A program made the position numbers and the translations under genes. The notes beneath the pieces were generated by a model. It was not told the DNA's origin. It saw only the letters and a list, made by a program, of their open reading frames with translations, and made no database searches. Positions 51,197 to 64,000 of a stretch of 64,000 nt of DNA are shown here, one piece after another; within the stretch, counting starts at the first letter, position 1, and the number at the start of each line of letters is the position of its first letter. Origin of the DNA: Fusobacteria bacterium ZRK30 (GTDB lineage: Bacteria; Fusobacteriota; Fusobacteriia; Fusobacteriales; Fusobacteriaceae); assembly GCA_024628785.1 (NCBI GenBank), contig CP102404.1:496001-560000 (forward strand). Reading direction: 5' to 3'.

Positions 51197-52366
51197 TTAA
51201 CTACAGATGAACTTTTCGCCTGTTTTTAATAAATGAAATATCACTCTTAATAATTTTTTAGCTGTATGACTCATGGCTACTAAGTAATGTTTTCCTTGAG
51301 ATTTTTTTAAATATAAGTATTCTTTAAAAACAGGAACTCTTATACTAACTGTCCTAGCTGCTTGTAATAGTGCCCAACGAAGATATTTAGAGCCTCTTTT
51401 AACCATTCTAGCCATAGTTGCAGTATAATTGCCTGATTGATGAGTTGAAGGGTCTAATCCCGCGAAAGCTAATAATTTTCCAGAATTTGAAAAGTTTTTA
51501 ACATTTCCAATTTCAGATAGAATAATGCTAGCTAAAACATAGGATATTCCTGGAATTGTTAATAATGGTGTTTTAGTTGCTATGACAGCTTCTTTTATTT
51601 TTTTATCTAAAAGATCTATTTCATATTGGATGTTTTGGATTAGCCTTATGCTTTGTTGTAATTCAAAACCAATTGACCATTCGCTTGTACCGATAGAATT
51701 AGTTGCAAGGATTTTAATTTCTTTAGCTTTTTCTTTACCATAGCGCCCATGAGAATTTTTAGATAAGATATTTGTTACCTTTGTTAAATGACCTTTTGAA
51801 AGATCTTTTACTGTAGGAAATTCTAATAATAAAGCATAAGAAGATTTTTGATGTATTGACCAAACTACATTACTTAGCTCAGGGAAAGCAAGATCTAATA
51901 TCCTTGTTACAGATATTTTTAACTTCCCGCGATGATTTACCAACCTATATCTATGTCTTGCTAGTGATTTTAACTCATTTATGTTGTAATCTATAGGTAG
52001 GTAGGAATTAGAATCATCGCTGAAAAGCATTTGAGCTATAATTTGAGCGTCAATTTTATCGGTTTTAGTCTTTCGAAGTGTCATAGCTTTACGATAAAGG
52101 TTTACAGCAAGCGGGTTAAATATTTTTAACTCCAGACTGTTTTTGCGAATGAAATTGATAATATTATTGCCATAATGCCCAGTTGATTCTATTCCTACTT
52201 TTATATTGGAAAAATCATCAGAATATGAAGATAAAACATTTTTAAAAGTTGTAAACCCTTCAAAAGAATTTAGAAAAGAAAATTTTGTTTCAACTATTTC
52301 TTTTGAAGAGTCAAAAATATAGCAATCATGTTTATTTTTAGCAACATCGATACCAACAAAAATCAT
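51197..52366 (-). CDS. IS110-family transposase (DEDD/serine recombinase)
   Basis: A 389-residue protein; start MIFVGIDVAKNKHDCYIF with AAGGAG 7-8 bases upstream. The N-terminal RuvC-like DEDD domain shows Asp in GIDVAKNKHD, Glu in GIESTGHYG and Asp pairs in KTDKIDAQIIAQ. The C-terminal Transposase_20 domain holds PGISYVLASIILSEIG and the catalytic Ser in GLDPSTHQSG. All expected residues are present, so it looks active. Such enzymes use a bridge RNA from the noncoding end. Confidence 0.93.
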   Translation of the reverse strand: MIFVGIDVAKNKHDCYIFDSSKEIVETKFSFLNSFEGFTTFKNVLSSYSDDFSNIKVGIESTGHYGNNIINFIRKNSLELKIFNPLAVNLYRKAMTLRKTKTDKIDAQIIAQMLFSDDSNSYLPIDYNINELKSLARHRYRLVNHRGKLKISVTRILDLAFPELSNVVWSIHQKSSYALLLEFPTVKDLSKGHLTKVTNILSKNSHGRYGKEKAKEIKILATNSIGTSEWSIGFELQQSIRLIQNIQYEIDLLDKKIKEAVIATKTPLLTIPGISYVLASIILSEIGNVKNFSNSGKLLAFAGLDPSTHQSGNYTATMARMVKRGSKYLRWALLQAARTVSIRVPVFKEYLYLKKSQGKHYLVAMSHTAKKLLRVIFHLLKTGEKFICS

Positions 52367-52379
52367 AGTTACCACTCCT

Positions 52380-57321: not shown

Positions 57322-57407
57322 TTCTAAATAATCGATATATTTTTCATAAAAATCTTGAAAATATATGTAGAAAATGTTATCCTACTAGGTGGAAAAATAA
57401 AAAATAT

Positions 57408-57501
57408 CATTTTTGGCAAAGCAGAGGAAACTCTGTGACGCAAAACTAAAGGGCCTTTAAAATGGCAGCCAGTTGCAGATCTTACGAGATCTGCATTTTT
57501 T
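57408..57501 (+). promoter_or_regulatory. c-di-GMP-I (GEMM-I) riboswitch 1 with terminator
   Basis: The aptamer reads GGCAAAGCAGAGGAAACTCTG, then TGACGCAAAACTAAAGGGCC, then GGCAGCCAGTTGC, matching the GEMM-I consensus (GGCAAA...GAAA...GACGCAAA-C...GGGCC...GGCAGCCAGUU). The first hairpin is AGAG-GAAA-CTCT with the conserved GAAA tetraloop. It runs straight into the terminator GCAGATCT-TACG-AGATCTGC plus T7 (57475-57501), which shares bases with the 3' end of the aptamer. Confidence 0.92.
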
Positions 57502-57574
57502 TATGAAAAAAAAAGTTGTTAGCTTATTTTTAGGTTGTGTTAAGCTATTTTTAATTTTTATGGATAAAAATATA

Positions 57575-57668
57575 ATTTTTGGCAAAGCAGGAGAAATCCT
57601 GTGACGCAAAACTAAAGGGCCTTTAAAATGGCAGCCAGTTGCAGATCTTACGAGATCTGTATTTTTTT
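57575..57668 (+). promoter_or_regulatory. c-di-GMP-I (GEMM-I) riboswitch 2 with terminator
   Basis: A second complete unit 166 bases after the first. The aptamer core from TGACGCAAAACTAAAGGGCC to the terminator is almost the same as in copy 1. The first hairpin has changed to CAGGA-GAAA-TCCTG, a compensatory difference that keeps pairing. The terminator is GCAGATCT-TACG-AGATCTGT plus T7. The gene start is 122 bases downstream. Confidence 0.92.
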
Positions 57669-57789
57669 ATATAAAATAACGGTTGTTAGTTTATTTTTTA
57701 GGGTATATTAAGGAATTTTTAATCTTCGGAATTATGAATTTAAAATAGATATAGAATAAAATATTAAGTTTACTAGGGGAGAAGGAAAG

Positions 57790-60700
57790 ATGAAGAAAAT
57801 AGTTTTATTGTTTTTGTTAGTTATATCAATGCAGTTATGGGGAAAGGAATTTAATGGAACCTATAGTAACTTTTTGTACTATAAAGATGCTATGAAAAGT
57901 GGAAGTGAGGTAAGAATAACTCCCAATGAAGGGGACAAGAAAGGGGCAGTTTGGTCACGAGACACATTTGATTTAAACCAAAAATTTCATTTTGAATATG
58001 AGATATATTTAGGAGATAGAAAAACTCAGGATCTTGAAACTTATCTTAAGGAGAATCCTGGTAAAAGTATATCTCCTGAATACGTTGATGTTAATGGAAA
58101 TATTGATATAGGAGCAGATGGGATGGCTTTCATTTTTAAATCGTCAGCTTATAAAAATGATAACTATGGAAATGCAGGACAAGATATTGGTTATGGTGGA
58201 GGTAATTTTCCCCTTTCCTTTGGAGTTAAATTTGATACCTATACAAACCCTTACTATGATCCAGAATCTACTAGAGATTCAAATGGTATATGGAAGATGG
58301 GAGATATAAGAAAAGACCATATTGCTTTTATAGCCAAGGCAAAAATTGCAACAAATAAATCTTATTCAGGTATTATAGGTGGAAAATCTCAGCCTCTTGA
58401 AGTAAATGAAATGGAAGATGGAATGTGGCACAAAGTTAAGTTTGAGTGGGATCCAGGAATTGTTGACAGTTCTGGAAAGAGGAGTGGAAGTAAGTTCACA
58501 TATACTTTTGATGGTTATAGTAAAACTTATTATGGAGATATAGTAGCTGATTATTTGGGTGGAGATAATAATGTTTATTTTGGGTTTACTTCGTCAACGG
58601 GGCAGTGGATGAATGAACATAAATTTCGTGACCCTAAGATTATCGGGAAAGTAGATAATAAATTAGAGGTAAAGAAAAGGGTTATCGGCAAAGAACTTTA
58701 TGAATTAGGGGAGATTATTAAATATGAAATAACGATAGCGAACACAGGAGAAGGGGTCCTTACTGATGTTATATTAAAAGATGGTAAGGAAGTTAATTCA
58801 GAAACTCAATCAGATGTTAACCTTGATAAGGTTCACTGGGATCAGCTTTTAAAAGGTCAGGTTGTAACGACATATGGATATAAAACTGTTAAACAAGAGG
58901 ACATAGATGAAGGCAGTGTCGTGAGAACAGCAACTGGAGAAGCCAAAACAACTAATGGAGAAATATTATATGGAGCTGCAGAAGCAACTGTAAAGACAGC
59001 AAGAAATGAAATAGAAGTAAGTAAAGTGATCCAAAGTGGAAATGGTTATACAAAAAAAGGTGATAAGATAACTTATGACTTTATTGTGAAAAATACAGGG
59101 AATACAACTTTAAATACTGTTGCTGTATCAGATCCTAAGATTTTGTCAGGAATTGTACTGAATAAAACTACCTTAGCTTCAGGAGAAATGGCAACTGGTA
59201 GCGGAGAATATACAGTAACTCAGCCCGATGTAGATGCAGGGCAGATAGAAAATACAGCTACATTTACAGGAATAAATCCTAATAATAAAATTATAAGCGA
59301 AACTTCAACAGTGACAGCGTATGCAACTAAATTAGATATAACTAAAAAAGTAACAGATACAGATTTAGGAGGAAAAGACACAGCAGCATATGGCGAAGAA
59401 TTAACATATGTAATAGAAGTAACGAATAATTCAAATATAGATGTAATAGGTGCACAAGTATTAGATGATCTTAACACAGATTACTTTGGAACAGACATAC
59501 CGACATCATTAACAGTAGACGGTAAAGCACCGGTAGGAGATTTTAAAACAGGAATTACACTACCGACAATGAAACCAAATCAAAAAGTGTTAGTAGAATT
59601 TAAAGTAAATGCAAACTATAGTTCTAGTATGTTACCAGGAGCATTAATAAAAAATACAGCAAGAGTAGGTTATGGAGGGACGGAAAACCCTTCAAATGAA
59701 GCCAAGCTTCCTATTCAAAATTTTACCGCTACAGATCTGGATATAAAACTTCAGGTTGAGGATCTAGGAGGAGATGGATTTGAAAAAGGTGACGGAATAG
59801 TAGATGATGGAGAGGAAGCTGAATATACTATTTCCATAACTAATCCGACATCGGTAAATGCCGTAAATGTATTGGTATCTGATGATTATAATGATTTATA
59901 CCTATATAAAAATGATTCGTATAAATACGTTTCATCTGATGCAAAAAAATTAACTGGGGAAGATTTAAAAGAGGGAATAATTTTACCTGAAATAAAGGCA
60001 GGAGAAACGATAAAATTAAAATTTATGGTGGGATTCAGCTATGAAGGAAAAAATGTAGACCAGGATGACACAATTCCAAATGAAGCATATCTTTCGCTCC
60101 AGGAAACTTCACCTCTTAAAAAGTTGAGGAGATCAATTGCTCCTATAAATAAAAGTTCCAATAAAGTTGTATTGAAAGTTGCTAAACCTACATATACTCT
60201 TTCAAAGGAGATCAGGAATAAGAATGATGAATTTTATCCGGGAGATGTAGTAGTTTATGATATTACTCTAGAGAATACTTCTTCAGTTGTTGGAAAAAAT
60301 ATAAAAATCGAGGATAAAGTCAGTGAAATAAAGGCTTTTGAAAATTGGACATGGGAATCAGGAGTATTAAAAACACCTGAATCACTTCTTAAAACCGGCT
60401 TGAGAAAAGATCTTTCGGAGAATGGAATAGAACTATTGGCAGGAGAAATTAAAAGATATACAGTAGTTGGAAGGCTTAAAGACAGTCTTTCAAAGGGAGA
60501 GGTAAAAAATACAGTAAAGGCAGGAGAAAATTTAGAACTGCAGGCTGAAGCTACCCTTAAAGTGGAAGATGCTCAGATAAAGGTAACTAAAACAGCTAAG
60601 AAAAAATGGGTTTCCATAGGAGACCTGATCAGTTATAAGATAACTGTTCAAAACCTTTCAGGGAATAAGGGAACGGTGCTTAAAAATTTAAGTTTAAAAG

Positions 60701-62412
60701 ATATGATGCCTCCTGGATTTAAATATGCTGAAGGATCTGGAAAAGTAGATGGAAATGATGCTGATGAAGATCTTAGAGGGAGAACTATTTATTTCAATAA
60801 TTTAGAGCTTGTAGGAGATAAAAAAATTGAAATAACTTATATTTTGAGGGTTGGAACTGGAGTTAAACCTGGCTCTTATAAAAATAAAGCATGGATAGAA
60901 AATACTTCTGGAAAGAACCTGTCTAACATCGGGGAAGCCAGTGTGGAAGTTATAAATGATCCATTATTTAATAGTACAGTAATAATAGGAAAAGTTTTCC
61001 ATGACAGAGACAATGATGGTTGGCAGGACGATGCCAATGCTTATGATATCAGAGTGCAGACCCTTTCTTCTCAAAACAACTACTTAGATGGTTTTGTAAA
61101 AAAAGGGGATGAAGAATGGAGAATCTCTTCAGAGTCTAAAGAATTACTCTTAGGAAACCTTGATGGAAGGGGAGATGAGAGTGAAAGATCTCAAAAGGTG
61201 ATTTTAAGAAGAAGAATAAAAGATCCTAAAAAAATAGGAGATATCCTGATTAAATCCAAAGAAGGATCAAATATCACTTTAAAATCTACAGGTGAAATTC
61301 TAAGAAACCATAGTGGAAATAGAAATCTGACAGGGGTTGATTTAAAAGTAGTCAGAAGAGTAATAAAAGATCCTAAATACAGGGAAGAACTAAAGAATGT
61401 TAAGAGTTTAAAAAAAGTAAGGATAGAGAACTTTATAGAGCCTATATATTTTGATTCAGCGTATGCCAATATCAGAGATGGTGAAAATGAAAAATTAAAA
61501 CAGTATCTGGAAAAATTGAGGGATAAAAAAAATCTTAAATTAGTAATTGTAGGTTATACAGACTCTCAAAGACCTTCTAAAAAAGCAAAGTTTAAAAATA
61601 ACCATGAATTGTCCATTGCAAGAGCTAATACTTTAAAAGACTACCTTTCAATGAAGTTAGATCTTTCAGAAGAGATGTTTGTTATAGATGGAAAGGGACC
61701 TAAAAATCCTAAAGGAAGCAATAGAACAAGTACTGGAAGACAGCTTAATAGAAGAACAGAGATAGTTATAGAGTATGATGAGGAAGTTATGAAAAAAATA
61801 CCTTTAAAGGTAGATGAAAGTGACTACTTTGAAGAGATAGAGATAAGAAATGACGGAATTTCAGAAGAGGGAATCCCAGGAGTAAGACTTGCTACAGTAG
61901 AAGGACTAGTAATTGAAACTGACCAATTTGGAAGATATCATGTGGACGGTATAGATGATATACCGGACAGAGGTAAAAACTTTATTATTAAAGTAGACAA
62001 GGTTACTCTTCCTTCAGGGACAGAGTTTACTACAGAAAATCCGAGGGTAAAAACTCTTACTAAGGTCATGGAAAAATTTAACTTTGGGGTAAAAATTCCA
62101 AAGGCAAAGAAAAGAGTTAAAGAAAAAGAGATAAAAGTAAGAGTTGGAAGTGTATTCTTCCTAACAGATAAATGGAATGTAAGAGAGGATCAGATAGATA
62201 ACCTTAAGAAGATATCGAAGCTCCTTACTGAGTATAGGGGTGGAGTTATTGTGGTAGAAGGAAATGCTGACAGCCGGGCATCGAATAAATATAATGAGAT
62301 TTTGGCATTAAAAAGAGCAAAATCTATAGGGAAAGAGTTGGAAAAAATAATGGGGAAAGATATGATTTCTAATGTAAAAATTGTTACAGACCTCTCTGGA
62401 GGTGAAAGATAA
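57790..62412 (+). CDS. Giant lectin/DUF11/OmpA surface protein
   Basis: A 1540-residue exported protein. Signal peptide about 1-19 (MKKIVLLFLLVISMQLWG). Residues 20-285 are an L-type (legume-like) lectin domain with the metal-site segments IGADGMAFIFK and FGVKFDTYTNPYYD. About six DUF11 repeats (290-1060) follow, each with the N-T-G or N-x-S strand pattern. Then come an SdrB-like segment (KVFHDRDNDGWQDD) and two OmpA-like peptidoglycan-binding domains (about 1220-1345 with YFDSAYANI..VGYTDSQ..RANTLKDYL; about 1455-1540 with VRVGSVFFLTDKWNV..VVEGNADSR). It probably links the outer surface to the cell wall and binds carbohydrate. It is preceded by the two riboswitches and overlaps the next gene by one base. 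Confidence 0.9.
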   Translation: MKKIVLLFLLVISMQLWGKEFNGTYSNFLYYKDAMKSGSEVRITPNEGDKKGAVWSRDTFDLNQKFHFEYEIYLGDRKTQDLETYLKENPGKSISPEYVDVNGNIDIGADGMAFIFKSSAYKNDNYGNAGQDIGYGGGNFPLSFGVKFDTYTNPYYDPESTRDSNGIWKMGDIRKDHIAFIAKAKIATNKSYSGIIGGKSQPLEVNEMEDGMWHKVKFEWDPGIVDSSGKRSGSKFTYTFDGYSKTYYGDIVADYLGGDNNVYFGFTSSTGQWMNEHKFRDPKIIGKVDNKLEVKKRVIGKELYELGEIIKYEITIANTGEGVLTDVILKDGKEVNSETQSDVNLDKVHWDQLLKGQVVTTYGYKTVKQEDIDEGSVVRTATGEAKTTNGEILYGAAEATVKTARNEIEVSKVIQSGNGYTKKGDKITYDFIVKNTGNTTLNTVAVSDPKILSGIVLNKTTLASGEMATGSGEYTVTQPDVDAGQIENTATFTGINPNNKIISETSTVTAYATKLDITKKVTDTDLGGKDTAAYGEELTYVIEVTNNSNIDVIGAQVLDDLNTDYFGTDIPTSLTVDGKAPVGDFKTGITLPTMKPNQKVLVEFKVNANYSSSMLPGALIKNTARVGYGGTENPSNEAKLPIQNFTATDLDIKLQVEDLGGDGFEKGDGIVDDGEEAEYTISITNPTSVNAVNVLVSDDYNDLYLYKNDSYKYVSSDAKKLTGEDLKEGIILPEIKAGETIKLKFMVGFSYEGKNVDQDDTIPNEAYLSLQETSPLKKLRRSIAPINKSSNKVVLKVAKPTYTLSKEIRNKNDEFYPGDVVVYDITLENTSSVVGKNIKIEDKVSEIKAFENWTWESGVLKTPESLLKTGLRKDLSENGIELLAGEIKRYTVVGRLKDSLSKGEVKNTVKAGENLELQAEATLKVEDAQIKVTKTAKKKWVSIGDLISYKITVQNLSGNKGTVLKNLSLKDMMPPGFKYAEGSGKVDGNDADEDLRGRTIYFNNLELVGDKKIEITYILRVGTGVKPGSYKNKAWIENTSGKNLSNIGEASVEVINDPLFNSTVIIGKVFHDRDNDGWQDDANAYDIRVQTLSSQNNYLDGFVKKGDEEWRISSESKELLLGNLDGRGDESERSQKVILRRRIKDPKKIGDILIKSKEGSNITLKSTGEILRNHSGNRNLTGVDLKVVRRVIKDPKYREELKNVKSLKKVRIENFIEPIYFDSAYANIRDGENEKLKQYLEKLRDKKNLKLVIVGYTDSQRPSKKAKFKNNHELSIARANTLKDYLSMKLDLSEEMFVIDGKGPKNPKGSNRTSTGRQLNRRTEIVIEYDEEVMKKIPLKVDESDYFEEIEIRNDGISEEGIPGVRLATVEGLVIETDQFGRYHVDGIDDIPDRGKNFIIKVDKVTLPSGTEFTTENPRVKTLTKVMEKFNFGVKIPKAKKRVKEKEIKVRVGSVFFLTDKWNVREDQIDNLKKISKLLTEYRGGVIVVEGNADSRASNKYNEILALKRAKSIGKELEKIMGKDMISNVKIVTDLSGGER

Positions 62413-64000
62413 TGAGTAAAAATAGAATATTTATGACTATTATCTTTCTTATGTTATTGGGAGTAGATGCTTTAGGTGAAAAAGTTGTTTCTACACAGGG
62501 AGATTTTGAGGAATCTCCCGCTGAAAAACAACAGCCATATAGTGTGGAATTAATCTCAAATGGTGAGGAAAAGCCATTGGTTGAAAACAATACTTTTGAA
62601 GGTATGAAGCAGAACAGAAGAACAGATGTGATATACAGAAACAGGATAAAGCTTGAAAATAATAAGGGGCTTTTATGGGCTGTTGTAGATCCGGTGACAA
62701 TATCTCCTAAGCTGAATATTACTTCTGAAAGGGGAGAAATAGTTCCGGGGATGGAAAGCTGGTTTAAAATTTATACTAACTATAGTGAATTTATAAAAAA
62801 ATGGGAAATAGAGATATATAAAAGAGGTGAAGATACACCCTTTGTAAATCTTAATGGAACAGATATTGATTTTTCTAAAAAAATCTTATGGACTCCTCCT
62901 AAGGAATTTTTTCCCGGGGATGAGATCGAATACAGGGTTAAAGTCTGGGATGGTCAGGGTAATTTTGATGAGACTTCATTGAAATCTATGGAAGTTGTTA
63001 CAAAAGAAAGATGGGAAAAGAATACTCCAACAGATGAAAAAGGGAAGAGGAAGAAAGAGGGAGGAGAAATTTATGGTAGAAGTTCCCTCCTCATTCATAA
63101 TATTCCTCTAGATGCTGCCAAGGTAAGGTTTTATGGTCGTGATTTTGATGAAGATATGAAACTTTACTTGGGGAAAAAAGAGATTCCTGTTGATAAATAT
63201 GGGAAATTTGCCTTTGAAGAACATTTTTCACCGGGAACTCATATATTGGATCTTAGAATTATAGAAAAAAAAGAAGTATTTAACTATCCATTGGAAATAG
63301 AGGTCCCTGATAAATATAATTTTATTGTGGGAATTGCCGATGTAAAGAGTGGGAAATATGATGTTTCCGGAAACGATGAGATCCTTTCAAAGGATTATCA
63401 TTACGATGAATCTTTTTATACAGACGGTAGGGTAGCTTTTTATTCTAAAAACAGATATAAAAAGTATCTCCTTACTGCCCATATGGATACCAGAGAGGAA
63501 GAACTGAAAAATATATTCAGCAATTTGGATGAAAGGGATAATAGAAGTGTCTTCAGGGATATGCAGAGGGATATGTATTATACAACTTATGGGGATGAAT
63601 CTACAACTTATAGTGATGTAAATACACAGGGGAAACTTTATTTAAAGTTAGAGTGGGATAAAAATAACTTTATATGGGGGAACTATAATACCGGATTTAC
63701 GGGAACCGAATTTGCCAACTATAATAGAAGTCTTTATGGGGCAAAATTAGATTTGAGAAGCAGAAAAAGTACTTCATGGGGAGAGGATAAAAACAGTTTA
63801 AAAGCCTTTATCTCTCAGCCTGGGACAATATTTGCCCATGATTCATTTTTAGGAACTGGGGGAAGTCTTTACTACCTGAAACATACAGATATGGTAGTAG
63901 GAAGTGAAAAAGTCTGGGTGGAGATAAAAGATAAAAAGACCGGATTAGTAGTGGAAAACCTATACCTTACAGGGGGAGAAGACTATGAAATAGAATATTT
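62412..64000 (+). CDS. Outer-membrane partner protein (partial, runs off the window)
   Basis: The ATG overlaps the previous stop (TAATG), so translation is coupled. At least 529 residues are visible. A signal peptide (MSKNRIFMTIIFLMLLGVDALG) is followed by beta-rich repeats with DUF11/SdrB-like features (PFVNLNGTDIDFSKKILWTP, YRVKVWDGQGNF). From about 330 onward aromatic alternating strands typical of an outer-membrane barrel or surface scaffold appear (FIWGNYNTGFTGTEFANYNR, SLYYLKHTDMVVGSEKVWVE). The last segment is like the repeats that precede barrels in large OmpA-linked surface proteins. Exact family not certain. Confidence 0.8.
   Translation, partial: MSKNRIFMTIIFLMLLGVDALGEKVVSTQGDFEESPAEKQQPYSVELISNGEEKPLVENNTFEGMKQNRRTDVIYRNRIKLENNKGLLWAVVDPVTISPKLNITSERGEIVPGMESWFKIYTNYSEFIKKWEIEIYKRGEDTPFVNLNGTDIDFSKKILWTPPKEFFPGDEIEYRVKVWDGQGNFDETSLKSMEVVTKERWEKNTPTDEKGKRKKEGGEIYGRSSLLIHNIPLDAAKVRFYGRDFDEDMKLYLGKKEIPVDKYGKFAFEEHFSPGTHILDLRIIEKKEVFNYPLEIEVPDKYNFIVGIADVKSGKYDVSGNDEILSKDYHYDESFYTDGRVAFYSKNRYKKYLLTAHMDTREEELKNIFSNLDERDNRSVFRDMQRDMYYTTYGDESTTYSDVNTQGKLYLKLEWDKNNFIWGNYNTGFTGTEFANYNRSLYGAKLDLRSRKSTSWGEDKNSLKAFISQPGTIFAHDSFLGTGGSLYYLKHTDMVVGSEKVWVEIKDKKTGLVVENLYLTGGEDYEIEY

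Follow-up and report, generated by a model that had tools for sequence, protein, structure and literature searches.

Tandem c-di-GMP-I riboswitches with separate terminators, predicted to act as serial ON gates, precede a lectin/OmpA surface operon in Fusobacteriaceae

The leader described here lies on the + strand of a 64-kb window (the whole stretch of DNA analysed, 64,000 nucleotides), ahead of a gene for a secreted or surface protein of 1540 aa (57790-62412, + strand). The N-terminus of this protein is signal-like, and its domains comprise an L-type lectin, DUF7507/DUF11 repeats and two OmpA stretches (Pfam; NCBIfam B_ant_repeat). An earlier note on this DNA had named a giant lectin/OmpA protein as the target; Pfam bears out the domains, and the description can be refined to a 1540-aa protein heading an operon. 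The stop of this gene is overlapped by the start of a second gene on the same strand (62412-64000 in the window, which it runs off), encoding a protein of 1176 aa in total with no Pfam or NCBIfam match. Judged by its domains, the lectin/OmpA protein may mediate adhesion. Elsewhere in the window, an IS110-family transposase (DEDD_Tnp_IS110 and Transposase_20) is found on the - strand at 51197-52375.

A probable promoter, TTGAAA-17-TATCCT with TG before the second hexamer, lies at 57355-57383 on the + strand (9/12 in a consensus scan). It is likely the single start for the whole leader, with RNA beginning near 57390, and the stretch 57340-57390 is 96-98% identical in two relatives, G054 and G060. 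No ORF of at least 60 aa is present between 57260 and 57790. The two riboswitch units are separated by an AT-rich spacer (57503-57570, + strand), a diverged copy of the spacer behind the second unit; the latter, together with a ribosome-binding region (GGGGAGAAGGAAAG) ahead of the ATG, occupies 57669-57789 on the + strand and is conserved in G054 and G060. A hairpin in the first spacer (TTAGCTTA/TAAGCTA) was ruled out as a third terminator because copy 2, G054 and G060 do not keep it. A perfect TATAAT at 57571-57576 opens the second aptamer (TATCAT in copy 1) and is kept in three species. No -35-like hexamer was found for it, and it is probably a chance occurrence in AT-rich DNA; it could mark a weak second promoter, but transcription initiated from it would begin within aptamer 2.

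The only Rfam matches in the window are two full-length c-di-GMP-I aptamers (RF01051) on the + strand, aptamer 1 at 57405-57480 (59.6 bits) and aptamer 2 at 57571-57646 (59.5 bits). Both cover model positions 1-87 of 87 and score above the gathering score of 35, with E ~4e-9 each for the window; the start of aptamer 1, previously put at 57408, is thereby corrected to 57405. On the basis of the Rfam alignment and of what is generally known about the structure of the Vc2 aptamer, we take 57415 and 57581 to be the equivalents of G20, and 57476 and 57642 those of C92. The ligand-contact words GGCAAA and GUUGC are present in both aptamers, as in each copy of the G054 and G060 doublets, and the G (not A) at the position-20 equivalent of both copies suggests that c-di-GMP would be preferred over c-GAMP. 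The two units form a 166-nt repeat, of which 114 nt are 92% identical, and the similarity runs on, diverged, into the spacers; Tandem Repeats Finder reports no array at the locus, since the sequence beyond the aptamer has diverged too far. The copies differ in the P2 arms by two both-sided changes (CAGAG..CTCTG and CAGGA..TCCTG) that persist in relatives, so the compensatory changes claimed earlier for the first hairpin are real.

Each aptamer owns an intrinsic terminator. The terminator scan identified TGCAGATCTTACGAGATCTGCA with T7 at 57474-57495 (terminator 1, spanning 57474-57502) and TGCAGATCTTACGAGATCTGTA with T7 at 57640-57661 (terminator 2, spanning 57640-57668), and these were its only + strand hits in the stretch scanned. 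Both hairpins have 9 bp and a UACG loop. One G-C pair of terminator 1 is a G-U in terminator 2, which makes the second hairpin the weaker of the two (-9.8 against -11.8 kcal/mol). The claim of two complete aptamers with their own TACG-loop terminators is thus upheld. With two aptamers and separate terminators in one leader, ahead of one gene, the locus belongs with tandems that have multiple expression platforms; it is not a cooperative dual aptamer of the glycine type, in which one expression platform is shared.

The terminators had been described as following the aptamers. There is indeed one per aptamer, but each overlaps the aptamer 3′ end rather than merely following it: the terminator 5′ arm, UGCAGAUCU, starts inside the aptamer match, at 57474 and 57640, so that 57474-57480 and 57640-57646 are shared. 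This arm holds the base of the last P3 pair, the equivalents of G91 and of the ligand-contacting C92, and the P1 3′ strand. Since the terminator uses G91, C92 and the P1 3′ strand, the bound aptamer and the terminator are expected to be mutually exclusive, and each unit is therefore predicted to be an ON switch, with the pair forming an AND gate for one ligand. The earlier note gave no switching direction; the prediction of ON comes from this overlap of the terminator 5′ arm with the ligand junction and P1 strand, a layout found in both units. When successive transcript lengths were folded, the terminator took over once its 3′ arm had been made, and the outer P3 pairs of the aptamer weakened.

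The same construction is widespread in the family. Among 62 loci drawn from genomes G000-G060 (G000 carries this locus), 36 have an arm before a T tract that can pair with at least 7 of the 8 bases beginning at G91, against 12% on average, and 26% at the highest, when arms were swapped between loci. A terminator built from the aptamer 3′ end is therefore the rule in the family, realised with many different arm sequences. The terminator alone shows no two-sided covariation within the genus, because its 5′ arm is invariant, and the covariation case for it accordingly rests on the family-wide comparison.

Across the 61 family genomes, RF01051 pairs ~170 nt apart occur at only three loci, this one and those in G054 and G060, all in one genus and each directly upstream of the orthologue of the lectin protein. 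(A scan of GTDB contigs at the protein level recovered a single relative, whose contig lacks the leader.) Aptamer pairs within 1 kb on one strand in G035 and G053 were not counted as tandems, as each gap is ~500-700 bases; that in G035 reads as a short protein gene and that in G053 looks like a short coding sequence. Whole-unit trees sort the G000 and G054 sequences by position, each copy lying beside the corresponding copy of the other species; the first copy of G060 falls with the other first copies, though bootstrap support for this is low (52). The copies also share marks by position, TATC or TATA before the aptamer and ATGAAAA or ATATAAAA after the terminator. The duplication is thus most likely older than the divergence of these species.

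Both units appear to have been maintained since. Compared with G060, 185/196 positions of aptamer plus terminator are identical (94%) versus 130/170 in the spacers (76%; Fisher p 7e-7); compared with G054, the counts are 193/196 and 159/170 (Fisher p 0.025). In a 12-sequence alignment, 97% of cells hold standard pairs, and 7 cells in P2 and P3 carry two-sided, pair-preserving changes, a number reached by 0/500 shuffles. The proposal that both units are under selection is thus a fair one, given their conservation in three species, but the P2 difference on which it leaned appears to be a single event, common to copy 1 of G000 and G054 only.

We read the leader as a tandem of complete c-di-GMP-I riboswitches acting at transcription as two ON gates in series, and give this reading a probability of about 0.88. 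RNA polymerase starting near 57390 would make aptamer 1 first. Without ligand, UGCAGAUCU would pair with AGAUCUGCA and transcription would terminate before the T tract. When c-di-GMP is present, it would be held by G20 and C92 while the short P1 keeps UGCAGAUCU from the terminator, allowing read-through. With only 3 pairs in P1 (UUU/AGA), one of them G-U, it is uncertain how tightly the bound ligand would shut out the terminator. Unit 2 would then repeat the decision of unit 1, so that only transcripts passing both gates would reach the lectin/OmpA operon, and basal expression would approximate the product of two leaks. The genome has ten RF01051 matches and 28 GGDEF matches over cut-off, making c-di-GMP signalling plausible in this organism.

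The series arrangement had been credited with both lower leakage and a sharper response. Lower leakage has a direct experimental precedent in a Bacillus triple riboswitch, where one unit allowed 74% reporter expression at low c-di-GMP, two units 25% and three units 8% (PMC4759541). In a simple model of independent gates, a second gate moves the mid-point to a 1.7- to 2.4-fold higher c-di-GMP concentration and narrows the 10-90% range from 81-fold to ~40-fold, or to 48- to 64-fold with a 10-30% leak per gate. The modelled response does narrow, but its sharpening was overstated; on this model, the main gain of series gates would be lower basal expression, with modest steepening.

It is also conceivable, if unlikely, that both aptamers are present and only one gate matters, the other being a redundant duplicate or a weak binder kept by chance or by recent gene conversion. 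A single unit suffices ahead of the matching gene in G055, of the same genus, and in G053 and G012, of other genera. G060 offers further points in this direction: its copy 2 (L072:1259-1334) has CACGC replacing the conserved GACGC, which may weaken that gate, and its two copies share spacer changes (ACACTAGTTAG), which suggests occasional homogenisation. Against this, three species retain both units, in which aptamer and terminator have diverged less than the spacers and pair-preserving changes occur, and in Bacillus the background fell with each added unit (PMC4759541).

A paralogous operon in the same genome encodes a DUF11 protein of 3024 aa together with a partner that shares 39% identity with the 1176-aa protein. 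Ahead of this operon stands just one c-di-GMP-I aptamer, of more divergent sequence (42.9 bits; G000 contig C1:788022-788097, equivalent to L010:1501-1576, also L112), with an A at the G20 position and GGCGC replacing GACGC. Variants that sense c-GAMP typically have an A at position 20. At G054 C3:703027, a similar aptamer with a terminator of the same kind has G there instead. These features allow a more specific account of the doublet, to which we give little credence: a lineage-specific rheostat, in which an old duplication was kept only for the lectin operon, with the stronger first and weaker second terminator setting different leaks, while the single gate of the paralogous operon drifted to A20 and may answer c-GAMP. 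If so, each of the two paralogous surface systems would answer to a different cyclic dinucleotide.

An aptamer ahead of a lectin-like gene in G012 (L074:1377-1452) has a C at the G20 position (CGCAAA), as do aptamers at G003 C2:13825 and G006 C49:55326. At G000 C2:1723226 (L007:1501-1700), a well-conserved c-di-GMP-I aptamer and terminator are followed by no obvious protein gene for several hundred bases, a layout repeated at G054 C2:1332129, G055 C9:41769 and G055 C26:16693; position 20 is G in the G000 copy and A in that of G054. Rfam found nothing else in the DNA downstream of these aptamers, which is poorly conserved. Two further G000 loci, C2:1557197 (L002) and C1:450330 (L005), have longer c-di-GMP-I aptamers and a separate terminator ~25-70 nt downstream, a platform unlike that of the tandem. 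L005 precedes a solute-binding/HD-GYP-type protein (HD_5), a possible feedback on c-di-GMP.

Could c-di-GMP instead turn the operon off by promoting termination, as with Cd1 of Clostridioides difficile? The same aptamer class does yield OFF switches elsewhere (PMC9262584). However, the Cd1 aptamer and terminator can coexist, the competition being with an antiterminator (PMC9262584), whereas the terminators here consume C92 and the P1 3′ strand, so that bound aptamer and terminator cannot coexist, and the predicted folds show no separate antiterminator strand. We consider an OFF switch very improbable. Least credible of all is that the terminated leaders are end products in their own right, two sizes of short aptamer RNA that would bind c-di-GMP or act on targets in trans: attenuators of the ON type necessarily release RNAs, here of ~110 nt and ~280 nt, at low c-di-GMP, and the literature mentions riboswitches acting in trans, but no target or specific feature was found and control in cis explains the conservation.

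Series gating for one ligand is an established principle, and nothing tested here departs from the known tandem class. Among the same-class tandems reported, those of c-di-GMP-I are the most numerous, at 347 doublets and 12 triplets (PMC9481103), and a later survey found c-di-GMP riboswitches to be enriched for tandem arrangement (PMC12452182). The locus adds a clean tandem c-di-GMP-I example for Fusobacteriaceae, in which single-unit orthologues of the same gene provide natural controls, and would connect this signal with a lectin/OmpA surface operon in bacteria for which few c-di-GMP targets have been described.

The closest known system is Bc3-5 of Bacillus thuringiensis (PMC4759541), which likewise consists of serial complete c-di-GMP-I units with their own terminators, each terminator and ligand-bound aptamer excluding one another through the ligand-contacting C, P1 and part of P3. 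ON switching was both predicted and measured for Bc3-5 and is predicted here. Bc3-5 has three units ahead of cspABCDE, whereas the present leader has two, in a Gram-negative host of the Fusobacteriaceae and ahead of a lectin/OmpA surface operon. Like the c-di-GMP-I doublets of PMC9481103, it pairs two riboswitches for the same ligand with separate expression platforms, the 'pseudo-cooperative' class. The pilM GEMM-I riboswitch of Geobacter metallireducens is also an ON switch that works through terminator-aptamer exclusion, with one strand serving both structures, but it is a single unit and senses c-GAMP (PMC9262584), while both copies here keep G at the c-di-GMP-selecting position. Tandem c-di-GMP control of a surface protein has a parallel in Paraclostridium, where tandem c-di-GMP-II aptamers precede surface anchor protein genes (PMC9481103), although those aptamers belong to class II and are unrelated to the class I aptamers of this leader.
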